From an uncultured Methanomicrobiales archaeon (GTDB lineage: Archaea; Halobacteriota; Methanomicrobia; Methanomicrobiales; Methanospirillaceae): DNA of 64,000 nucleotides. Below are positions 19,487 to 59,917 of this stretch, piece after piece. Each line of letters starts with the position of its first letter. Position 1 is the stretch's first letter. The position numbers and the translations under genes are program-made. The stretch lies in assembly GCA_903926075.1 (NCBI GenBank), contig CAIYHQ010000128.1, positions 62,001-126,000 of the forward strand, given 5' to 3'. The notes beneath the pieces are model-generated. The model was given only the letters and a program-made list of their open reading frames with translations, searched no databases and was not told where the DNA came from.

Positions 19487-20597
19487 AACTGAGATACATG
19501 AAGGTGATCTAATTGCAGACTTCTTCGCCGGTTCCGGTACTAGCCTTGCAGTAGCCGAAAAACTTGGTCGTAAATGGATAGGTTCCGATCTCGGCAAATT
19601 TGCCATTCACACCACTCGCAAAAGGATGATTGGTGTCCAGCGGGAGATGAAAAAATCAGGAAAAGATTTCCGGGCTTTTGAAGTCCTCAACCTTGGCAAA
19701 TATGAACACCAGCACTATATTGGAATAAACGAAAATCTCGGTGATGAAGAAAAACAAAAACAACTCGAACAGAAGGAGAAAGATTTTGTTGCACTCATAC
19801 TTCACGCTTATTGGGCTGAAATTGTTACGAATTTCTCTACTTTTCACGGAAAGAAACAGAACAGGCTAGTATCAGTAGGACCGGTAAATCTTCCGGTCAC
19901 CCGGCTCTTTGTTGAAGAGGTTATCTCTGAATGTAGACAGAAAAGAATTACGAAAGTGGATATCCTTGGATTTGAATTTGAGATGGGACTATTCCCCAAC
20001 GTACAGGAAGAAGCAAAGTCTAAAGGTATCGACCTTTCACTCAAATATATTCCGCGTGAAGCCTTTGATAAACGGGCCATCGAGAAGAACCAGGTAGTAT
20101 TCCACGATGTCTCATACATAGAAGTAACTCCTCATATCAAAGGGAATTCAATATCAGTAGAACTCACTGACTTTTCAGTCCATTATAACCAGGACACGAT
20201 TGCAAATGCTGAAGCCATGCTTAAAGAAGGTTGAAGCAAAATTGTTGTTGATGACGGCCAGATTGTAAAAATTATTAAAGATAAAAGTGGAGTTGTAAAA
20301 AGACAAAATCTGACCAGTTCCTGGACCGACTGGATAGATTACCGGTCTGTGGATTTTGATTACGAAAGCAAAAAAGAGATTATCTCTATCAAAAACGAGG
20401 AAGCTATAATCGAGGTGATATGGTCTGGAGATTATATATTTGAAAATGAGTGGCAATCTTTCCGTACAAAGAGAGAACGGAGTCTCGAACTGAAAAGCAT
20501 CTCGAAGGAATGCCTGCTCGGAAGACGAAAGATAGCCGTAAAAGTGGTTGACATCTTTGGAAATGACACAGTGAATATAATCGATGTGTATATCTGA
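19487..20597 (+). pseudogene. mod: Type III restriction-modification methylase (Mod), truncated and interrupted
   Basis: The frame begins abruptly after a stop and encodes the SAM-binding motif I of an N-6 adenine methylase, [20 protein letters not shown], then [17 protein letters not shown] and the Mod C-terminal region. The N-terminal half with the catalytic DPPY-type motif is absent. An in-frame TGA at 20232-20234 interrupts the C-terminal part, after which the same frame continues (SKIVVDDGQIVKIIKDKSG...) to a stop at 20597. It is non-functional as it stands. The KilA-N and Res genes follow immediately, the usual order of such loci. Confidence 0.8.
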
Positions 20598-50840: not shown

Positions 50841-50868
50841 TAGAAATAATTATTAGGAGGCGAAGAAA

Positions 50869-51042
50869 ATTCCCATAGAGAGAGCACTTACTCTCGAAGA
50901 AACCGCAAAACTCCTGAAACTTTCACCACGTGGAGTGCAGGAACTTATCAGGAGCGGTAAAATTAAGGGGTTACGTCTGCAGGGTACGTTCAAGATAAAA
51001 TCAGGGGACGTCCAGGCATATCTGAATTCACAGCGAAGATAA
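50869..51042 (+). CDS. Small excisionase/MerR-type HTH protein with probable ATT start
   Basis: A 57-residue protein: (M)PIERALTLEETAKLLKLSPR, then GVQELIRSGKIKGLRLQG and KIKSGDVQAYLNSQRR. This is a textbook excisionase-type winged helix (helix-turn-helix, GxIxGxR wing, DVxxYL end). A perfect AGGAGG (50855-50860) sits 8 bases upstream of ATT 50869, and no ATG/GTG/TTG occurs between the in-frame stop at 50854 and the conserved domain, so ATT is the likely start codon. No integrase is near, so it is more likely a regulator than a true Xis. Confidence 0.75.
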   Translation: MPIERALTLEETAKLLKLSPRGVQELIRSGKIKGLRLQGTFKIKSGDVQAYLNSQRR

Positions 51043-51112
51043 GATTATTTTCACTGTTTTAGCAGAAATACGTTAAGTTTTGTACTTCCTCTTTCATTCA
51101 CTTAAATAAAAA

Positions 51113-51562
51113 ATGTCTGAAGATTTTTTTGATGAAGTAAAAATGGATACAATTGTTGTAAATATAGTGGATACCTGGGACCACCAGCAGCTTGTTGAAC
51201 TTTACAGGGCCGGGGGATGGTGGGATGAATCATGGGAATCTCACCGGTTATCAGATCTTATACTGGGCTCTTTTGCTCTTGCAATTGCATCTGTTAAAGG
51301 AGAAAACACAGCGGTTGGTATGGGAAGAGTAATATCTGATAGCGTTTCAGATGCTTATATTCAGGATCTTGTTGTGCTTCCCTCCTGGCGAGGGAAAAGA
51401 ATAGGGTGCATGATTGTTGAGAAACTATTGGCATATTGCAGAAAAAGGGGCATCCACTGGATATCACTTATTGCAGAACCCGGGACTCTCCCATTCTATG
51501 AGCAACTTGGATTCCAGATAATGGACAGTTGCGTCCCATTACATTATAAAATAGAGTACTGA
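51113..51562 (+). CDS. GNAT-family N-acetyltransferase
   Basis: 149 residues with the GNAT core: AVGMGRVISDSVSDAYIQDL, the acetyl-CoA motif VLPSWRGKRIGCMIVEKLL and EPGTLPFYEQLGFQIM. The compact single-domain form resembles small-molecule or protein N-acetyltransferases; substrate unknown. It starts one base before a tandem partner (DUF2156) on the same strand, so both are probably one operon. Confidence 0.8.
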   Translation: MSEDFFDEVKMDTIVVNIVDTWDHQQLVELYRAGGWWDESWESHRLSDLILGSFALAIASVKGENTAVGMGRVISDSVSDAYIQDLVVLPSWRGKRIGCMIVEKLLAYCRKRGIHWISLIAEPGTLPFYEQLGFQIMDSCVPLHYKIEY

Positions 51563-51563
51563 C

Positions 51564-52472
51564 ATGAAAAACCTATCAGAATGGCTTCCAGTAAGCCTTG
51601 AAGACCGGGCACTCTTTGTTTCACATTACCTGGAATATCCCCAGGTCCATAGCGACAACACCTTTGTAAATATGGTTGTCTGGAACTCCTATGCAAATTA
51701 TTCATTTCTTTTTGAAAATGATTTATTAATAATTGCAAGCACTATTGACGAAAAAACCGTATATAGATATCCGGTAGGGCCGGATAACCCGGAGATCCTA
51801 AAAAGACTACTTCGACTATGCATCGAATCAAAGAGTGATGAACCACTTGTCATATTCGGAGAAAACGATAAAACGAGGATTTTATCGCATTATCCAAACC
51901 TTGTCCTTCATCCGGCGCGGGACTATTTTGAATATGTTTACCGTTCAGAAGACCTTGCTTCGTTGTCAGGAGGAAAATATCTGACAATACGACGCCAGCT
52001 CCATAAATTCAAAAGAAACTGCCAGTACTCTGTCGAAGAGGTAGTGCCTGAAAACCTGGATGAAGTTCATGAGTTTCTCGTACGATGGTGCGAATGGAAA
52101 GGCTGTGAACAGGAAGCTTTCCTTTCATATGAACGTGATGCTGTCTTTTTTGCGGTAGAACACTTTTTCTCACTAGGCCTGTCCGGGATACTGATACGGG
52201 TAAGAGGCAGGGTTAGTTCTGTTGCAATTTATGAACCCTTAAACCCTGATACAATTGTTGTTCACTTTGAGAAAGGACACTCGGACTGTGAAGGGGTCTA
52301 TCGGGCTATCAATGTTGAAACTGCCCTTGCAGTCAAAGATAAGTACACCTATATCAACAGGGAGAGTGATATGGGCGTTGATGGACTTCGTGAAGCAAAA
52401 AGACGCTATTACCCGGATCATATGGTCGAAGTCTACACAATTCCAAGAGAATCGATTAAAAACTGCTTATAA
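51564..52472 (+). CDS. DUF2156 (phosphatidylglycerol lysyltransferase C-terminal-like) protein
   Basis: 302 residues made of two GNAT-like halves, as in the DUF2156/LPG-synthase C-terminal family. Typical parts are the early VWNSYANYSFLFENDLLII, the central LRKxxxxFK-like RRQLHKFKRNCQYSVEEV, and the C-terminal INRESDMGVDGLREAKRRYYPDHM. No membrane part is present, unlike MprF. It may transfer an aminoacyl group from tRNA or an acyl group; substrate unknown. Two bases separate it from the GNAT gene. Confidence 0.75.
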   Translation: MKNLSEWLPVSLEDRALFVSHYLEYPQVHSDNTFVNMVVWNSYANYSFLFENDLLIIASTIDEKTVYRYPVGPDNPEILKRLLRLCIESKSDEPLVIFGENDKTRILSHYPNLVLHPARDYFEYVYRSEDLASLSGGKYLTIRRQLHKFKRNCQYSVEEVVPENLDEVHEFLVRWCEWKGCEQEAFLSYERDAVFFAVEHFFSLGLSGILIRVRGRVSSVAIYEPLNPDTIVVHFEKGHSDCEGVYRAINVETALAVKDKYTYINRESDMGVDGLREAKRRYYPDHMVEVYTIPRESIKNCL

Positions 52473-52522
52473 CTGATATACTGGTGGGAATCTGGTAGTT
52501 TTCATGACCCACCAATATAGGT

Positions 52523-53029
52523 TCAGTCTGTTTTTTTATTTATAGAAGCTGTTATCGAATCGATATCTTTTTTGAACCATGAAATTACGCGTTTTTCTGC
52601 TTCCAAATAGCCCCCGTCCAGAAATATTGCACCTACAAGGGCTTCTATAGTCTCAGCAAGCACATATGGCTGTTCAGATGCTCCCTGCCGTTCTTCTCCC
52701 TTTCCCAGGAGTAAAAGGGGACCGATATTCATTTCAGCCCCTATTCTTGCAAGATGTTCTTCGCGTTCGAGTTCAATTTTTAACCTGGTAACGACTTCAG
52801 GGGTTTCACAACCCCGAAGAACGAGTGAATGAACGAGAATTGTTCGCAACACTGCATCACCAAGTGTTGAGAGGACTTCCTGGTCCATACAAGGGACTTT
52901 TCTCTGTTTTGATTCAATTGCAAATGCTTTCCTTGTGAGTGCCCTTAAGAGTGTATCTTCATTTATAAATTTGTACCCAAGGGCAGATTCTGCAAGCCTT
53001 ACCTTATCTTTCAAAGTTTCCTGTTCCAT
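52523..53029 (-). CDS. rnc: Ribonuclease III-like single-domain protein
   Basis: 168 residues with an RNase III catalytic domain only; the dsRNA-binding domain is absent. The signature motif is QEVLSTLGDAVL (50-61): Glu51 and Asp58 keep two catalytic positions, but the position equivalent to E. coli Glu41 is Ser54. Later VLAETIEALVGAIFLDGG keeps the last Glu, with Asp replaced by Glu at the third catalytic position. It may cleave with changed metal use, act on a structured RNA like MiniIII, or be a non-cleaving binder. Operonic with the MarC gene (8-base gap). Confidence 0.75.
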   Translation of the reverse strand: MEQETLKDKVRLAESALGYKFINEDTLLRALTRKAFAIESKQRKVPCMDQEVLSTLGDAVLRTILVHSLVLRGCETPEVVTRLKIELEREEHLARIGAEMNIGPLLLLGKGEERQGASEQPYVLAETIEALVGAIFLDGGYLEAEKRVISWFKKDIDSITASINKKTD

Positions 53030-53037
53030 TTTACCCC

Positions 53038-53628
53038 CTAAACAAGAGCGCGAATTCCATCTGATATTATCTTAATTGCAATTGCTGCAGTAAACATCCC
53101 AAGCATCTTTCCAATTACTTCCGTGACTGTGTCACCAATTAGACTCCTAATCTGTTGAGAGTACCTTAAGACGAGCCATGAAGCAACAAGACAAAGTGCG
53201 GTCGATAAAGCAACGACAAGAACTCCATATTGTTTGGAAAGAAGCATGACAGTTGTTATTGTCCCTGGCCCACAGAGAATAGGAGTCCCGATAACAACGC
53301 CTGCAACCGACTGAGGGCCCTCTCTCTCTTTTCCAATTGTTACCCCCAGTGTCATCTGCATACCAAGAATGAAGAGGAGAATACCGGACGCTGTTTGAAA
53401 TTCGGGCAGGGTTATACCAAGAACGTCAAAGATGAGTATGTTAAAGAAGAGAAAGATATACATTAAAAATCCAGCCACACCTATTGCAATTAATGCTTGT
53501 TTATTTATTTCACCCGGAGTCATTCCCTTTGTTAGTGAAGTAAAGATAGGAAGTGAGAGGAGCGGGTCTAGAATTACAAATAATGCACTGAATGTATAAA
53601 TAACTGAAGGGAGGAACTCAGACATACT
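53038..53628 (-). CDS. MarC-family membrane protein
   Basis: 196 residues with six hydrophobic helices. The start ATG 53628 gives a standard MarC N-terminus (SVIYTFSALFVILDPLLSLP); a frame 17 codons longer adds a polar leader. AGFLMYIFLFFNILIFDVLG and GVVIGTPILCGPGTITTVMLL correspond to family motifs, including the P-x-x-x-G-P-G stretch. Transport substrate is uncertain; some relatives move amino acids. Confidence 0.82.
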   Translation of the reverse strand, partial: SMSEFLPSVIYTFSALFVILDPLLSLPIFTSLTKGMTPGEINKQALIAIGVAGFLMYIFLFFNILIFDVLGITLPEFQTASGILLFILGMQMTLGVTIGKEREGPQSVAGVVIGTPILCGPGTITTVMLLSKQYGVLVVALSTALCLVASWLVLRYSQQIRSLIGDTVTEVIGKMLGMFTAAIAIKIISDGIRALV

Positions 53629-53725
53629 CTGTCTCTTTATTTGTAATGGTTCTGGGATAAATACAAAGGTCTTTCCCATCAGTTTCAGATGAGATTATAT
53701 TATCAGAAAGAAGATATGGGAAGGT

Positions 53726-54178
53726 ATGAATTCTAAATCTGTACTTATTGTTGCTTCCATAATCTGTTTTATTTTAATAGCTGGATGTACTGACACCGGA
53801 AAAAACTCAGGCGGGACAACAGAACAAACGACCGTGCCCATAGCATCTCCTTTAACCAGTGCAGAGCCAGGCATAACAGACAAAGTGCCTTCAATTTATG
53901 AAGTAGCTGTCCAGGTAGAGAAAAGTACACTCGCAAATGACCCTGCAATCACAACAACATTCAGAGGAGGAGCCGGAATGAATTCTCTATCCAAGATATC
54001 CATGACTGTGACTCATCCGGACGGTAGTATCGCATCAGGTTCAATTGATCATCCTCTCGTCGGTAATACCCTGACCCTTGCGGGTTCTCTTGGAAAAGAC
54101 AGGGTAGTTATCATGTCAGAACTGCCAAATGGGAAGAAATACAGGATATATGACGAATATTTAAGTTACAGGGGTTAA
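53726..54178 (+). CDS. Small secreted lipoprotein
   Basis: 150 residues with a lipoprotein signal peptide (VLIVASIICFILIAGC, lipobox IAGC at about 18-21), a short Thr/Ser linker and a beta-rich outer domain of about 100 residues (VQVEKSTLANDPAITTTFRGG, ISMTVTHPDGSIASGSI). Similar short lipoproteins are frequent in Methanomicrobiales. The next gene follows after 10 bases. Confidence 0.65.
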   Translation: MNSKSVLIVASIICFILIAGCTDTGKNSGGTTEQTTVPIASPLTSAEPGITDKVPSIYEVAVQVEKSTLANDPAITTTFRGGAGMNSLSKISMTVTHPDGSIASGSIDHPLVGNTLTLAGSLGKDRVVIMSELPNGKKYRIYDEYLSYRG

Positions 54179-54188
54179 GGCGGAAGAG

Positions 54189-54992
54189 ATGAAGTCTTTT
54201 AACTTGAAACTGACAACCGGCATAAAAGTCATTTTTTTTCTTTCAATAATCAGTATTATCATTATTTGTCCAGGTTACTGTGCAGAATTAAATATTGGAA
54301 AATTATTGAACGATACCATAGAAGCTGATGGAGTTATTACCTATATTGACCTTGAAGGTGGTTTTTACGGTATAATAACTGGATCAGGCGATGATTACCT
54401 CCCTAATAATCTCCCTGTGCAATATAAAAAAAACGGGACTAATGTACATTTTCAGGGAATTATTAATGACGATGGCGTCTCTTTTATGCAATGGGGCACA
54501 CCTGTTACAATAACAAAGATTGAGCCGAAAATTCAGGTAATTCCAACAATAGAACTCTATAATAAAGGAAAAAAAGTAATATTATCATCATCACAAAAAT
54601 CAATGCTCATCCCTCTAATCAATTCTGCTCTCTCGGCAGTTGACACGGTTTACCGTTGTATCACTCCGGTAACAGAAGTTGAACAGAAGAAGAAGACAGA
54701 AAGAATTATGCTTGTTTCATATGGCAAACCTATTGACCTCTCAACCTCGCTCGGTATAGGGGAGGGCCCTTCAAAGAATAATTCAGGAAGTTCTGTGATT
54801 TCAAAAGTCAGGCGTGTAGCCTTTTTAATTCCTGAAAACGAGTCACTTGTCCCAACCGCAGACATTCTTATTATGCAGGATAAAAAAACCTATTATGGCT
54901 GTTATTCAGAGGGCCGGTACCAGAATGAGACGAATAGTACCAATTGGATAGAAGATATCGAATTAATAATATCCCAGTCAAACACAAAATAA
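54189..54992 (+). CDS. Secreted hypothetical protein
   Basis: 267 residues with an N-terminal signal peptide (about 12-31, VIFFLSIISIIIICPGYCA). The N-terminal half (DTIEADGVITYIDLEGGFYG, PVQYKKNGTNVHFQGIIND) resembles a small beta-barrel (OB-like) domain. The second half has a long helix (QKSMLIPLINSALSAVDTVY). No family name can be given. Probably co-transcribed with the lipoprotein gene. Confidence 0.6.
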   Translation: MKSFNLKLTTGIKVIFFLSIISIIIICPGYCAELNIGKLLNDTIEADGVITYIDLEGGFYGIITGSGDDYLPNNLPVQYKKNGTNVHFQGIINDDGVSFMQWGTPVTITKIEPKIQVIPTIELYNKGKKVILSSSQKSMLIPLINSALSAVDTVYRCITPVTEVEQKKKTERIMLVSYGKPIDLSTSLGIGEGPSKNNSGSSVISKVRRVAFLIPENESLVPTADILIMQDKKTYYGCYSEGRYQNETNSTNWIEDIELIISQSNTK

Positions 54993-55054
54993 AATAAAAA
55001 AGGAACTGGCATCCTCCCATATCTTTATTACTAACTGAAAAAGAAAAAAATACT

Positions 55055-55363
55055 ATGGTTCAGGACGAAGCAGCGTACAGGGAGGCAAGGAGACACGTTA
55101 AAAATTTACGACATTTTTACTGGCACCTTGTTGTGTATATCATTGTCAATGCCATGCTTGTCATTATAAATCTTATTGTAAGTCCGCATACACTCTGGTT
55201 CTATTGGATAACAATATTCTGGGGAATTGGTGTTGTAATGAACGCGGTACAGGTATTCTCTCACGACAAAGTACTTGGGAAAGACTGGGAAGAGCGGAAG
55301 ATACAGGAGTACATAAACTCCCACAGAGATGACAATGTTCATGAGGAAGAGGAAAGTGATTAA
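55055..55363 (+). CDS. 2TM-domain protein
   Basis: 102 residues; the core YREARRHVKNLRHFYWHLVVYI with two helices, a conserved YWITIFWGIGVVMNAVQVF and the end GKDWEERKIQEYIN match the 2TM domain family found at the C-termini of many membrane regulators and as stand-alone proteins. The tail is acidic (HEEEESD). Confidence 0.8.
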   Translation: MVQDEAAYREARRHVKNLRHFYWHLVVYIIVNAMLVIINLIVSPHTLWFYWITIFWGIGVVMNAVQVFSHDKVLGKDWEERKIQEYINSHRDDNVHEEEESD

Positions 55364-55427
55364 GATATATTTTTTTAAAAAACAACCAAAAGACCATAAT
55401 AGAAAAACGTGATACCTGGTAATTAAA

Positions 55428-55961
55428 ATGGTTGTAACAGATTCAGAACTGGCTCTCGTTATTCCATATGAGATGCGTTGGAAGTTGGTTTCAGAGTTAG
55501 TGGCGTCTATTCCGGCTATGTACGACAATCTCTTTTCAGATATAGTCGGAAAGGAATATACTGAAATTGCAGGTGCAGTATCAATTGAGGTTGCACGAAG
55601 GGCCAGGTTGATAGCATTAAATCTTGGATTGTTATTCGGAGACGGGCCTGATCTAGCACATACACTGTCACTTATTCTAACAATATTTTATGGTCCGAAT
55701 TATAGGCTTGAAGAGCTTCCAATTTCAGAAGAGAGTGCAGTCCTCCTTTGTACAAGGTGCCCAAGGCTAACAGAGACCCAACTTGTCCACTCTGACACAC
55801 AAAATCTTTTTCACCGTTGTCTTGGCTTTATAGTGTATACAGTTGAAGGGCTTAACCCTGAATATACTGTAAGATTCGTAAGGGCATCCTGTACCGGAGA
55901 CAGGCACTGTGAGATAAAGGTGCAAAAAAAGAGTGATAAAAAGGATGTTTCAATAAAATAA
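55428..55961 (+). CDS. Hypothetical protein with conserved Cys in the C-terminal half
   Basis: 177 residues, soluble. The N-terminal half is helical (MRWKLVSELVASIPAMYDNLF). The C-terminal half is beta-rich with CTRCPRL, HRCLGFIVYTVEGL and ASCTGDRHCEIKV. The end pattern C-x-G-D-x-x-C-E resembles V4R and ATC-hydrolase-like small-ligand or metal-binding domains, but this is not certain. It ends one base before the convergent moaE stop. Confidence 0.5.
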   Translation: MVVTDSELALVIPYEMRWKLVSELVASIPAMYDNLFSDIVGKEYTEIAGAVSIEVARRARLIALNLGLLFGDGPDLAHTLSLILTIFYGPNYRLEELPISEESAVLLCTRCPRLTETQLVHSDTQNLFHRCLGFIVYTVEGLNPEYTVRFVRASCTGDRHCEIKVQKKSDKKDVSIK

Positions 55962-55962
55962 A

Positions 55963-56391
55963 CTATTCATGTTCGGATGATACCCACCGTTCTCCCTCAC
56001 CAGTATATTCTTTCTTCCAGATAGGGACTCTCTCCTTTATCCTCTCTATTATGTATTCACTACCCAGGAATGCTTCTTTCCTGTGACCTGCCCCGCATAC
56101 AATGAGAACAATGATCTCGCCTATAAAAAGCGTTCCAATTCTATGCTCAACATGAACATATGTCAGATTGTGCTCTTTCTGGGCATCCGCTGCAATTGTT
56201 TGCAGGTCAAGAAGGGCCATCTCTTCATCCGCTTCCACCAGGAGTTTTGATATTCCATCATCCCTTACAATACCACAGAATGTAACGATAGCTCCGGCAG
56301 ACGGCCCTTTTGCTTTTTCTATTGCTATATTTGAATCAATTTTTCCTTTTTTTATAAAAACCTCAACTGACCTTGCTTCTATCACTTTCAA
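55963..56391 (-). CDS. moaE: Molybdopterin synthase catalytic subunit MoaE
   Basis: 142 residues. Typical MoaE parts: GPSAGAIVTFCGIVRDDG, VHVEHRIGTLFIGEIIVLI, CGAGHRKEAFLGSEYII and the end VPIWKKEYTGEGERWV with the catalytic Lys pair. Together with MoaD it converts precursor Z to molybdopterin, needed for tungsten/molybdenum formylmethanofuran dehydrogenase and formate dehydrogenase. Overlaps the moaD stop by 4 bases. Confidence 0.88.
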   Translation of the reverse strand: MKVIEARSVEVFIKKGKIDSNIAIEKAKGPSAGAIVTFCGIVRDDGISKLLVEADEEMALLDLQTIAADAQKEHNLTYVHVEHRIGTLFIGEIIVLIVCGAGHRKEAFLGSEYIIERIKERVPIWKKEYTGEGERWVSSEHE

Positions 56392-56666
56392 CCACCTGAT
56401 ACAGGCGGATAGAGTGCGACTTCATCGCCTTCCTTAAGTGAAAAGGTAGGAAAGTCATCTCTGTCCAGGCGTACTCCGTTAACTGCCACAATGACATGCC
56501 CCAGTATGTTTCCCTCCTTCCCGCAAAGAGCGTCCTGTTTTTCTGGATCGTTCCCGCAGATACCTGAAACGAGACCGGTAATTCCGGTTCCTTCCGGTAG
56601 ATCTATTGCAAGATCACTTCCGAATAATTCCCGAAACCTGGCAAATGTCTTTACTTTTACCTTCAT
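56388..56666 (-). CDS. moaD: MoaD/ThiS-type sulfur carrier
   Basis: 92 residues with the beta-grasp pattern VKVKTFARFRELFGSDLAID and the C-terminal YPPVSGG, whose terminal Gly-Gly is adenylated and thiocarboxylated. It lies between moeB and moaE, so MoaD is more likely than ThiS. Confidence 0.88.
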   Translation of the reverse strand: MKVKVKTFARFRELFGSDLAIDLPEGTGITGLVSGICGNDPEKQDALCGKEGNILGHVIVAVNGVRLDRDDFPTFSLKEGDEVALYPPVSGG

Positions 56667-56687
56667 CTTTCTTCTTCTCCAATACTT

Positions 56688-57440
56688 TCAATCTTCCATG
56701 CTATATTCATTACCACAAACTGGACAATCCGGCCTTTTTTTCAGTTTTATCTCTTCAAGTCTGCCAGTTAAACCGTCCCATAGAAGAAGCCGGTTCCCAA
56801 GACCTTCTCCAATACCGAGAAGATGTTTTATCACTTCGTTAGCTTGTAATAGGCCGATAATTCCCGGTGTGATCCCGATAACAGGAACTTTGTCCGAAAC
56901 CTTAACATCAGGAAATATACAGGCGAGACAGGCACTCTTACCTGGAATGACTGTTGTAACCTGTCCATCAAAAGACCTCACTGCACCATGGACAAGAATT
57001 TTTCGGTTTTTCACTGCAAATGAGTTTAAGATATACCTTGTTTCAAAATTATCCATTGCATCAACAATAACTGATGCATCGCCTATGAGTGAATCTACCG
57101 ATGAGGGATCTATGTTTTCTGATTTTGCATGGACGGTTATATGCGGGTTTATTCTTTTAAGTTTAATAGACGCAGACTCAACCTTTTCTATCCCTATATC
57201 CTCATCATAATGGAGTATTTGTCGATTGAGATTCGATAGTTCAACTACATCCTTGTCAATTATAGTTAGTGACCCGACCCCGGCCACTGCAAGATAGTAT
57301 GCAACCGGAGAGCCAAGTCCTCCGGCACCCGCAATTGCAACATGGGAATTCTTTAGTCTGTTCTGCCCTTCCTCGCCAAAAATTAATAACTGCCTGCAGT
57401 AACGCTCACTTTCTTCAACCGAAATTTTTGAACCTTCCAT
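56688..57440 (-). CDS. moeB: MoeB/ThiF-type adenylyltransferase
   Basis: 250 residues of the E1-like family: RYCRQLLIFGEEGQNRLKNS, the ATP-binding VAIAGAGGLGSPVAYYLA, DKDVVELSNLNRQILH, and DAMDNFETRYILNSFAV. Zn-binding Cys pairs are CLAC and CPVC near the end. It activates the C-terminus of MoaD. ATG 57440 was taken as the start because an AGGAT lies 10 bases upstream; a GTG two codons earlier is possible. No rhodanese domain is fused. Confidence 0.88.
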   Translation of the reverse strand: MEGSKISVEESERYCRQLLIFGEEGQNRLKNSHVAIAGAGGLGSPVAYYLAVAGVGSLTIIDKDVVELSNLNRQILHYDEDIGIEKVESASIKLKRINPHITVHAKSENIDPSSVDSLIGDASVIVDAMDNFETRYILNSFAVKNRKILVHGAVRSFDGQVTTVIPGKSACLACIFPDVKVSDKVPVIGITPGIIGLLQANEVIKHLLGIGEGLGNRLLLWDGLTGRLEEIKLKKRPDCPVCGNEYSMED

Positions 57441-57497
57441 GAACACTCAGATCCTAACTTGGGGGTATTTTTGAGGAATATTTCTTCATCTTTACAA

Positions 57498-57509
57498 TAT
57501 TATAAATTA
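57498..57509 (+). promoter_or_regulatory. TATA box of the cdh operon
   Basis: TATTATAAATTA is located about 25-30 bases before the expected transcript start, leaving a short 5' leader of about 25-35 bases with an AGGGAGG ribosome-binding site at about 57545-57551. Confidence 0.55.
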
Positions 57510-57559
57510 GAGCATAAGGGAATACTGAGTTAGAAATTGTTGAAAGGGAGGCGGGCATC

Positions 57560-59917
57560 ATCACCACAAAAGACTTAAATATTCGTATTAAGGAGTTGGA
57601 GACCGGCATCGGCTTTATTCGTGATCTTGAAGTCTCTGTGGGGCACATGAACATCGAAAGATGGGATGAGCCACAGGGGCCCACTCCTTTTCCTACCATA
57701 ACAACGTTTCGTAACTGGGACCGCCAGCTTCTTTCCCGTTATAAACCATTTTATATGCCATTTTGCGACCTTTGCTGCCTGTGCACTTTTGGTAAATGTG
57801 ACCTCACCGGCACTAAACGCGGGGCCTGCGGAATAACAATGGCAGCGCAGCAGTCGAGGATAGTCCTTCTTGCAAGTTGTATCGGTGCTGCAACACATGT
57901 GAGCCATGCCCACGAACTGGTTTCAGAGCTTATAAAACGGTTCGGACCCGACTTCAGGCTGGACCCTGGCGGACTCTCGGTTGGAGTGGAAGCACCGCTT
58001 ATTCGTCTTGTATGCGGGCTCAAACCTGAAACACTCTCTGACCTTGAGACAGTCGTCAGTTATCTTGAGCGAGAGGTTACAAGCCTTCTTTCTGCAACGC
58101 ATACCGGACAGGAGGGTGACCCACTGGACCTTGAGTCAAAAGTATTCCATTCTGGCATGATTGATCATGTGGGACTGGAAGTTGCTGACATTGCACAGAT
58201 TTCCGGCTTTAATTTTCCAAAAGCCGACCCAGATGCACCGTTAATAAGACTGGGTGTAAAGGGAATAGATACAAAAAAACCGGTTATCCTTGTTATCGGT
58301 CACAATGTGACACCTTCTGTCAGCATCATGGAGTATCTGAAAGAGTTCCATTCAGCTGATTCAGCTGAGGTCACAGGGATATGCTGCAGTGCGATTGATT
58401 TATCCCGTAATAATAAGAAAGCCAGAATAATTGGACCCATTTCCTGGCAGATGAGATATATCCGGAGTGGAATACCGGATGTCATTGTAGTTGACGAACA
58501 GTGCATCAGAACAGATGTGATTAATGAAGCAGGGGCAGTGAATACCCGCGTAATCGCGACGAGCGAAAAAAACTGCATAGGTCTCCCTGACAGGACAAAT
58601 GACACGGCAGAGAGTATAATTAATGATCTTGTATCAAATAAACTTCCGGGCGTTCTTATACTCGACCCATTAAAATCTGCTCAGGTTGCAGTGGAGACTT
58701 CATTGCGGATCTTCGAAGAGAGAAGAAGGACTCACCGACCTTTTTCAGAGGCTGAAGCGAATGAGGCCGCCCTGAACTGTACAGGATGCATGGAATGTGT
58801 CAGGTCCTGTCCAAATGAACTTCCCATTCCTGACGCAATTCAATCATTCAGGGATGGTAACCCGGTAAATCTTCGGGAATTGCTCGACTTATGCAATGGC
58901 TGCATCCGGTGTGAACAAGCATGTCCTAAAGGTATTCCTGTGCATCGCCTGATCGTCTATTCAGGCTGGGAAAAACTGAATAATGAGCAGTTTACAGTTA
59001 GAGCCGGAAGGGGAGCAATCCAGGACACAGAAATCAGGACTGTCGGTGGGCCGCTCGTCCTTGGTGAAATCCCTGGAATAATTGCATTTGTAGGATGTGC
59101 CAATTATCCAAACGGCGGCGAGGAAGTTGCAAGGATGGCAGTGGAATTTGCACATAGAAAATACATTGTCTGCACTTCAGGATGCTCGGCTATTACTATC
59201 GGCATGTACCATGACGAAGACGGAAAGACTCCATATGAGGCTTATAGCGGAAAGTTTGATGCCGGTTGCATCCTGAATGTCGGGTCCTGCGTTTCAAATG
59301 CACATATTTCAGGAGCTGCTGTTAAGATTGCAAACATATTTGCAAAAAGGAATCTCAGGGGTAATTATGAGGAAATTGCCGACTATGTCCATAACAGGGT
59401 CGGTGCAGTTGGAATCGCCTGGGGAGCAATGTCACAAAAAGCAGCAGCGATTGCAGCCGGTTTCTGGAGACTCGGAATCCCTGTAATTGTAGGCCCGCAG
59501 GGGACCAAATACAGGCGTATGCTTCTTGGAAGGGGAGATATTGATTCCGACTGGACGGTAATGGATTCAAGAACAGGTGAAGAAGTATATACCGGACCTG
59601 TTCCGGAGCATCTCTTTTATGCGGCTGAAACAGAAGAAGAAGCTATGATGATGGCAGCAAAACTCTGCATGCGACCCAATGACACGGGTAAAGGGAGAAT
59701 TATAAAAATTACCCACTATATCGACCTTTACAGAAAATTATATGGAAAAATTCCTGACGATATTTACAGATTCATACGAAAAAAAGGCGATATACCCCTG
59801 ACCCTGAAGGATTCAATCGAAGAGAACCTAAAAATGCATAACTGGAAAGAGTCCCCAATTCCAGACCCAACAAGAATCCGGAGTTATGAAGGGAAGAGTG
59901 GAGAATCAAAGAGATGA
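57560..59917 (+). CDS. cdhA: CODH/ACDS alpha subunit (carbon monoxide dehydrogenase), CdhA
   Basis: This is the Ni-Fe-S carbon monoxide dehydrogenase subunit that reduces CO2 to CO for acetyl-CoA synthesis. Cluster ligands: FCDLCCLCTFGKCDLTGTKRG near the N-terminus, two ferredoxin motifs (CTGCMECVRSCPNELP and CNGCIRCEQACPKGIP), and C-cluster residues VDEQC, GCANYPNGG, TSGCSAITIGMY and NVGSCVSNAH. At about 770-785 residues it is of normal length. A TTG at 57596 is the first standard start, but its GGAG is directly adjacent and it would remove conserved N-terminal residues. The AGGGAGG at 57545-57551 points to ATC 57560 ((M)TTKDLNIRIKELETG). Confidence 0.9.
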   Translation: MTTKDLNIRIKELETGIGFIRDLEVSVGHMNIERWDEPQGPTPFPTITTFRNWDRQLLSRYKPFYMPFCDLCCLCTFGKCDLTGTKRGACGITMAAQQSRIVLLASCIGAATHVSHAHELVSELIKRFGPDFRLDPGGLSVGVEAPLIRLVCGLKPETLSDLETVVSYLEREVTSLLSATHTGQEGDPLDLESKVFHSGMIDHVGLEVADIAQISGFNFPKADPDAPLIRLGVKGIDTKKPVILVIGHNVTPSVSIMEYLKEFHSADSAEVTGICCSAIDLSRNNKKARIIGPISWQMRYIRSGIPDVIVVDEQCIRTDVINEAGAVNTRVIATSEKNCIGLPDRTNDTAESIINDLVSNKLPGVLILDPLKSAQVAVETSLRIFEERRRTHRPFSEAEANEAALNCTGCMECVRSCPNELPIPDAIQSFRDGNPVNLRELLDLCNGCIRCEQACPKGIPVHRLIVYSGWEKLNNEQFTVRAGRGAIQDTEIRTVGGPLVLGEIPGIIAFVGCANYPNGGEEVARMAVEFAHRKYIVCTSGCSAITIGMYHDEDGKTPYEAYSGKFDAGCILNVGSCVSNAHISGAAVKIANIFAKRNLRGNYEEIADYVHNRVGAVGIAWGAMSQKAAAIAAGFWRLGIPVIVGPQGTKYRRMLLGRGDIDSDWTVMDSRTGEEVYTGPVPEHLFYAAETEEEAMMMAAKLCMRPNDTGKGRIIKITHYIDLYRKLYGKIPDDIYRFIRKKGDIPLTLKDSIEENLKMHNWKESPIPDPTRIRSYEGKSGESKR

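Follow-up and report, generated by a model that had tools for sequence, protein, structure and literature searches.

We describe two genes whose reading frames open without a standard start codon (ATG, GTG or TTG) in a 64,000-nt stretch of DNA, here called the window, from an uncultured Methanomicrobiales archaeon (GenBank assembly GCA_903926075.1, contig CAIYHQ010000128.1, positions 62,001 to 126,000). The first gene encodes a small helix-turn-helix (HTH) protein and the second is cdhA (Table 1). In both, a strong Shine–Dalgarno (SD) sequence is followed 8 nt later by a near-cognate codon, ATT in the HTH gene and ATC in cdhA, and an initial annotation had proposed these codons as the starts. 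Direct reading of the sequence confirmed the arrangement that it described: AGGAGG, ATT and no standard codon before the conserved domain in the HTH gene, and AGGGAGG, ATC and a TTG set directly against a GGAG in cdhA.

Start regions of cdhA and the HTH gene

The cdhA product matches TIGR00314 at 1075 bits and is 57–67% identical to its relatives. From the upstream stop codon to TTG 57596 the frame contains no standard start codon, and this TTG abuts GGAG (57592–57595) with no spacer. An initial scan of genome contigs with CdhA returned no relative; a search of 61 genomes then supplied 22 CdhA loci besides that of the window, 21 of which cover the N-terminus (L022, covering only residue 104 onward, is left out of the count). 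A standard codon stands exactly in the column of ATC 57560 in 11 of the 21 relatives (GTG in six, ATG in four, TTG in one). The other ten have ATG at +2 (four) or at +3 (five), or, in the one remaining relative, GTG at both −3 and −2, the column itself being CTG. In every one of the 21 a standard start thus lies no more than three codons from the column. A second ATC (57557) lies immediately upstream and fits less well than ATC 57560. We conclude that cdhA very probably starts at AUC.

The HTH gene reads TAG gag gcg aag aaa ATT ccc ata, with an in-frame stop just 5′ of the ATT. There is no standard codon 5′ of the conserved N-terminus, and the first in-frame ATG, GTG or TTG is a GTG within the HTH domain. 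The 57-residue product matches Pfam HTH_17 over residues 7–56 (E 8.7e-12) and also TIGR01764 (E 8.7e-9), and matching genes occur in 28 of 232 genomes of the order at E 0.001, its own genome counted. Ungapped projection places an ATG against the ATT in 4 of the 25 distant homologues compared (L033, L034, L363 and L375), among which only L033 aligns from residue 1 (MPVDRILTIDEA versus IPIERALTLEET); L034 has two ATGs in tandem and L363 has a GTG further upstream. The remaining homologues start at least one codon off the column or carry N-terminal extensions. The HTH gene probably starts at AUU, and it is the weaker half of the finding, its homologue support being thinner than that of cdhA. The initial annotation had proposed looking for ATG at these codons in related species, and the comparison gave the answer it predicted; its claim that AUU and AUC are real starts drew strong support at cdhA and moderate support at the HTH gene, where L033 is the best case.

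Alternatively, translation of both proteins could begin further downstream, at TTG 57596 in cdhA and at the internal GTG in the HTH gene, the first codons open to a standard gene caller, and the residues upstream would then be untranslated. We consider this explanation highly improbable. It would remove from CdhA 12 residues that are conserved in its relatives (ITTKDLNIRIKEL / MGTKEINISIKEI / VSSKDINIRIGEL), none of the 21 relatives starts near +12, the TTG lies against its GGAG, and a start at the GTG would cut the HTH domain.

Table 1. Features of the two start regions, in window coordinates
Feature	Position	Strand	Remarks
Shine–Dalgarno AGGAGG of HTH gene	50855..50860	+	8 nt before ATT; spacing typical of genome; read directly
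ATT, proposed HTH start codon	50869..50871	+	pairs with ATG of L033 (IPIERALTLEE / MPVDRILTIDE)
HTH_17/excisionase-type gene	50869..51042	+	57 aa plus stop TAA; Pfam and TIGR01764 matches
Shine–Dalgarno AGGGAGG of cdhA	57545..57551	+	8 nt before ATC 57560; read directly
Second ATC just upstream	57557..57559	+	5 nt from SD; may serve cdhA as a start in place of, or along with, ATC 57560
ATC, proposed cdhA start codon	57560..57562	+	standard start in same column in 11/21 relatives
cdhA, CO dehydrogenase/acetyl-CoA synthase alpha subunit	57560..59917	+	785 aa plus stop TGA
TTG, first standard cdhA codon	57596..57598	+	would remove 12 conserved residues; 0/21 relatives start there

Two further arguments were dropped. 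The pattern AGGAGG-N8-ATY occurs twice in the window versus 1.33 times in shuffled sequence, which is the chance level, and 93 times in the whole genome versus 58 for a reversed control pattern, so that its count does not serve as evidence. The initial annotation had also taken the identical 8-nt spacing as support; SD-to-ATG spacings of 6–10 nt are the norm in the source genome, and we rejected this argument as well. Because neither the motif nor the equal spacing is proof, the weight rests on the reading frames and the homologues.

A ParA-like ATPase gene adjacent to cheW and cheR

The source genome was sampled over 464 kb of its 3.14 Mb (15%, window included; the SD spacings above come from the same sample), containing 396 predicted genes. 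Screens for a strong SD without a standard codon returned mostly internal or frameshifted frames, and the screen in which a ParA-like gene appeared showed 58 of the 396 genes, nearly all with an ordinary start a few codons in. Orphan-start genes numbered 22 of 396 in the source genome, 25 of 270 in another genome (G037) and 21 of 268 in an outgroup sample; because these counts fail to set the source genome apart, we claim no genome-wide rate.

The ParA-like ATPase gene (G000:C111:28042-28881, or L079:8042-8881, minus strand; AAA_31, E 6.2e-47) is followed on the same strand by genes for a PAS-CheW protein and CheR. Its 5′ end runs TAG ggt gga acc ATC tca atc gtc aca ttt gcc cat cat aaa ggc ggg acc ggc aag. 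The Walker A motif is preceded by no standard codon, and the first standard-start open reading frame opens at a GTG that lies beyond this motif. A pattern whose start column was set to DTN, blind to ACG or CTG, gave 106 matches in 104 of 232 genomes, and among the matches listed every column codon was ATN, though GTN and TTN were allowed. In a set of 97 distinct 5′ regions of the order, for which DTN was not required and the downstream HHKGG motif still was, the column held ATT in 51, ATC in 20, ATA in 15, ATG in 10 and ACG in one; ATH (ATT, ATC or ATA) is thus found in 86 of the 97, the sequences being related and not independent events. An SD match of at least 4 nt lies 5–10 nt upstream in 90 of the 97 regions, versus 22.4 expected from shuffled upstream sequence, with a spacing of 7 nt in 36 and of 8 nt in 38 (74 of the 90).

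The column does not behave like ordinary isoleucine, because internal isoleucine codons of 60 full-length ParA-like genes prefer ATC (ATC 699, ATT 264, ATA 248) and the column is rich in ATT. The fourth residue of the protein swaps isoleucine and valine, with GTN in 25 of the 97. Outside a Methanoculleus-like family, which is part of the 97 and whose three rows are excluded here, 43 of 59 ATH-bearing regions have no ATG, GTG or TTG anywhere upstream in the open frame. In that family a GTG within GGGGTGCTGGAT-ATT, three codons upstream in Methanoculleus species, is a rival start. Methanoculleus sp. FWC-SCC1 (L454) retains the ATT although its GGGGTG has fallen out of frame, and for this reason we favour an SD role for the GGGGTG.

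The gene's relatives were fetched as 87 loci and came down to 83 distinct rows, of which 11 belong to organisms outside the order. ATG lies upstream of the column in ten of these 11 (two codons upstream in nine, four in one), and the other has ATG in the column. Named carriers include Methanoregula, Methanolinea, Methanoculleus, Methanogenium, Methanomicrobium and Methanofollis, among others, and in Methanomicrobium mobile BP and Methanogenium cariaci alike the codon is ATT and no standard codon lies ahead of it. A named-genome set of 80 loci, which takes in loci from outside the order, contains 74 with the motif, where the column holds ATT in 36, ATC in 14, ATA in five, ATG in five and other codons in 14. 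The predicted non-AUG start of the ParA-like gene is kept across an order, in most Methanomicrobiales having the gene, and its rarity of ATG suggests selection for weak initiation. Separately, M. cariaci has a second ParA-like copy (L506) with an ATT start and the motif HHKGGVLE, its frame seemingly broken after HHKGG.

Other candidate starts within and beyond the order

By-eye judgement of 13 screened rows marked 'non' picked out an RNase Z gene (ATA), an ABC ATPase gene (CTG) and a C133 gene, which has ATC and then ATG. In the source genome, the RNase Z gene (L082:18046-18981, minus strand; G000:C111) has ATA behind AGGAGGTG, and the ABC ATPase/permease fusion (L071:2399-3703, minus strand; G000:C128) has CTG where four relatives have ATG; both have good SDs and both have an in-frame GTG at −3. 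The RNase Z pattern matched in 201 of 232 genomes. Across 56 distinct regions its column holds ATA in 23, ATG in 22, GTG in five, ATC in four, TTG in two and ATT in none, with no other of the twelve allowed codons and hence no GTH or TTH, and ATA is dominant in several families of the order.

For these two genes only, the GTG three codons upstream may be the true start, with the ATA or CTG internal, a possibility that we take seriously while leaning away from it. It is favoured by the presence at −3 of GTG (ATG in L107 and L117, TTG in L114) in nearly all ATA-bearing RNase Z genes, on account of which RNase Z was rejected as a clean case, G037 excepted. Several observations oppose it. The GTG is part of a GAGGTG match to the SD in RNase Z, and the column codons (ATA 23, ATC 4, ATT 0, no GTH or TTH) differ from the isoleucine codons inside ATA-bearing genes (ATC 268, ATA 77, ATT 70). 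In G037, GAA replaces the GTG; ATA there follows AGGAGG at a distance of 8 nt, and the open frame has no standard start among its first 34 codons. The same genome offers another candidate, a response-regulator gene (L301:6315-8412) with no standard start before LYVDDEP, which reads ATA AAT ACA GTT CTC after an AGGGGTTGG.

Beyond the order, in what we label a Methanosarcina-like genus, the ornithine carbamoyltransferase gene has ACG in 2 of 25 genomes (L326:2170 and L381) and ATG in the other 23. A LeuA-like gene of the same genus (L313:14551, L405-L428) has ATT in all 24 loci, in 22 of them with a single codon between it and an in-frame stop upstream; no standard start precedes DTTLRDGE, and the next standard codon lies inside that motif and is TTA in two genomes. 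Its SD-like GAGG is too close to the ATT, nearly abutting it, and for that reason its mode of initiation may differ, for example through a leaderless mRNA. Within the window itself, a DNA-methyltransferase-like frame recognized by eye (19488–20232) has no standard start for 46 codons and resembles a gene that has been interrupted more than one that starts with ATT.

Interpretation and known systems

In our assessment it is likely that AUU is the start of the HTH gene and AUC that of cdhA, both by real near-cognate initiation, as two lineage-specific cases of a recurrent methanogen habit. Predicted near-cognate starts recur in these archaea, and one of them is conserved across an order. Mechanistically, the strong SD match 8 nt upstream would hold the 30S subunit at each start, the initiator Met-tRNA (CAU) would pair with the first two bases of the near-cognate codon, and the mismatch at the third position would be tolerated, so that HTH and CdhA would still begin with methionine. 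Initiation efficiency would be low at such codons, and initiation at the HTH gene and cdhA is probably weak. In the conserved cases, weak initiation may be selected for, for example as a means of holding the ATPase at a low level compared with the Che proteins. The initial annotation had brought in an argument from bacterial initiation factors; it does not transfer directly, the host being an archaeon with named relatives in the Methanomicrobiales, and in archaea the factor reported to select against non-canonical starts is aIF1 and not IF3 (PMC6237735, PMC8211752). The near-cognate starts described here may depend on initiation factors.

Several points weigh against starts at these two codons. 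The source assembly is a 134-contig draft in which a single base error at 50869 or 57560 is possible, and there was no congeneric genome among those matched in the 61-genome search. The best non-self relatives of the HTH protein are only 38–40% identical, so that the homologues are distant, and 21 of the 25 have no start in the ATT column. The order-wide cases show the occurrence of non-AUG starts, not their use at the HTH gene or cdhA. Among the relatives compared, the ATH start of each of the two genes is found in its own genome only and is not kept elsewhere.

That confinement, together with the draft state of the assembly and the lack of a second assembly of the species, is what would be expected if sequencing or assembly errors had made ATT and ATC out of ordinary ATG starts. 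We regard such errors as very unlikely: the ParA-like case in the same sample is unambiguous, its ATH start is found again in dozens of independently assembled genomes, some of them from isolates, and at least three start codons would have to be hit within 15% of the genome with their frames left intact, an error rate that would be far above that of draft genomes. The same confinement would also fit genes in decay, their start codons lost by mutation and little or no protein made, and decay could pass unnoticed in a gene as small as the HTH gene, whose relatives are all distant. This, too, appears quite improbable, since the frames of both genes are intact, their SDs are strong and cdhA retains its identity to relatives and its TIGR00314 score.

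Near-cognate initiation at the HTH gene and cdhA may belong to a broader pattern. Tentatively, and with more doubt than confidence, we propose that a set of Methanomicrobiales genes, led by the ParA-like ATPase and perhaps including RNase Z, has AUU, AUC or AUA starts kept by selection as a translational class, with output set by start-codon discrimination (aIF1/aIF2) and with cdhA and the HTH gene as lineage-specific recruits. If this class is real, it would be an archaeal parallel of infC and sigR. If such starts are used in conserved archaeal genes, gene callers restricted to ATG, GTG and TTG would truncate these genes systematically; standard calling in the source genome would yield a ParA-like ATPase without its Walker A motif. 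Archaea have a eukaryote-like initiation core, and the genes would provide a natural, conserved near-cognate set for studying the roles of aIF1, aIF2 and the SD in archaeal start-codon stringency, with the ATT-bearing ParA-like gene carried by the two named isolates, Methanomicrobium mobile BP and Methanogenium cariaci.

We found no published report of conserved AUH starts in archaea at the level of titles and abstracts, in a search that left subscription journals mostly uncovered and does not prove absence. The start codons given in a review on initiation in archaea are AUG, GUG and UUG, and the terms AUU, non-AUG and near-cognate are absent from the review's available text (PMC7531240). Ordinary archaeal genes of that kind share SD-led initiation with the HTH gene and cdhA and differ in the start codon; the standard codon that they have at a conserved N-terminus is lacking in both. 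Ribosome profiling of Methanosarcina mazei found CTG starts in 5% of unannotated small open reading frames (PMC11456600), which likewise points to non-standard initiation in a methanogen; the available text of that study concerns small frames and CTG only, with no AUU, AUC or AUA and no conserved enzyme genes.

The nearest precedents are bacterial. The infC gene has near-cognate starts, ATT in E. coli and ATC in Streptomyces (PMC5472188), and is alike in having such a start in a real gene. It differs as part of a bacterial autoregulatory loop repressed by IF3, whereas the genes considered here are archaeal, of unrelated function and known from sequence alone. The closest parallel to the order-wide ParA-like case is sigR of Streptomyces, where a AGGAGGTG SD precedes the start codon; of 34 species, 32 have GTC there and two have GTT (PMC5472188). 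That gene is bacterial, uses GUC or GUU and has been put to experimental test; in the archaeal column the codon is ATH, and our knowledge of this column comes from sequence. Selection for weak initiation was reported for both sigR and infC in bacteria (PMC5472188). With them, the HTH gene and cdhA share the lack of a standard codon, an SD at working distance and a homologous start column, weaker for the HTH gene; a conserved non-canonical codon is found in the ParA-like gene and not in these two. Near-cognate starts are known in bacteria from infC and sigR, and here the genes are archaeal, with AUU, AUC or AUA.

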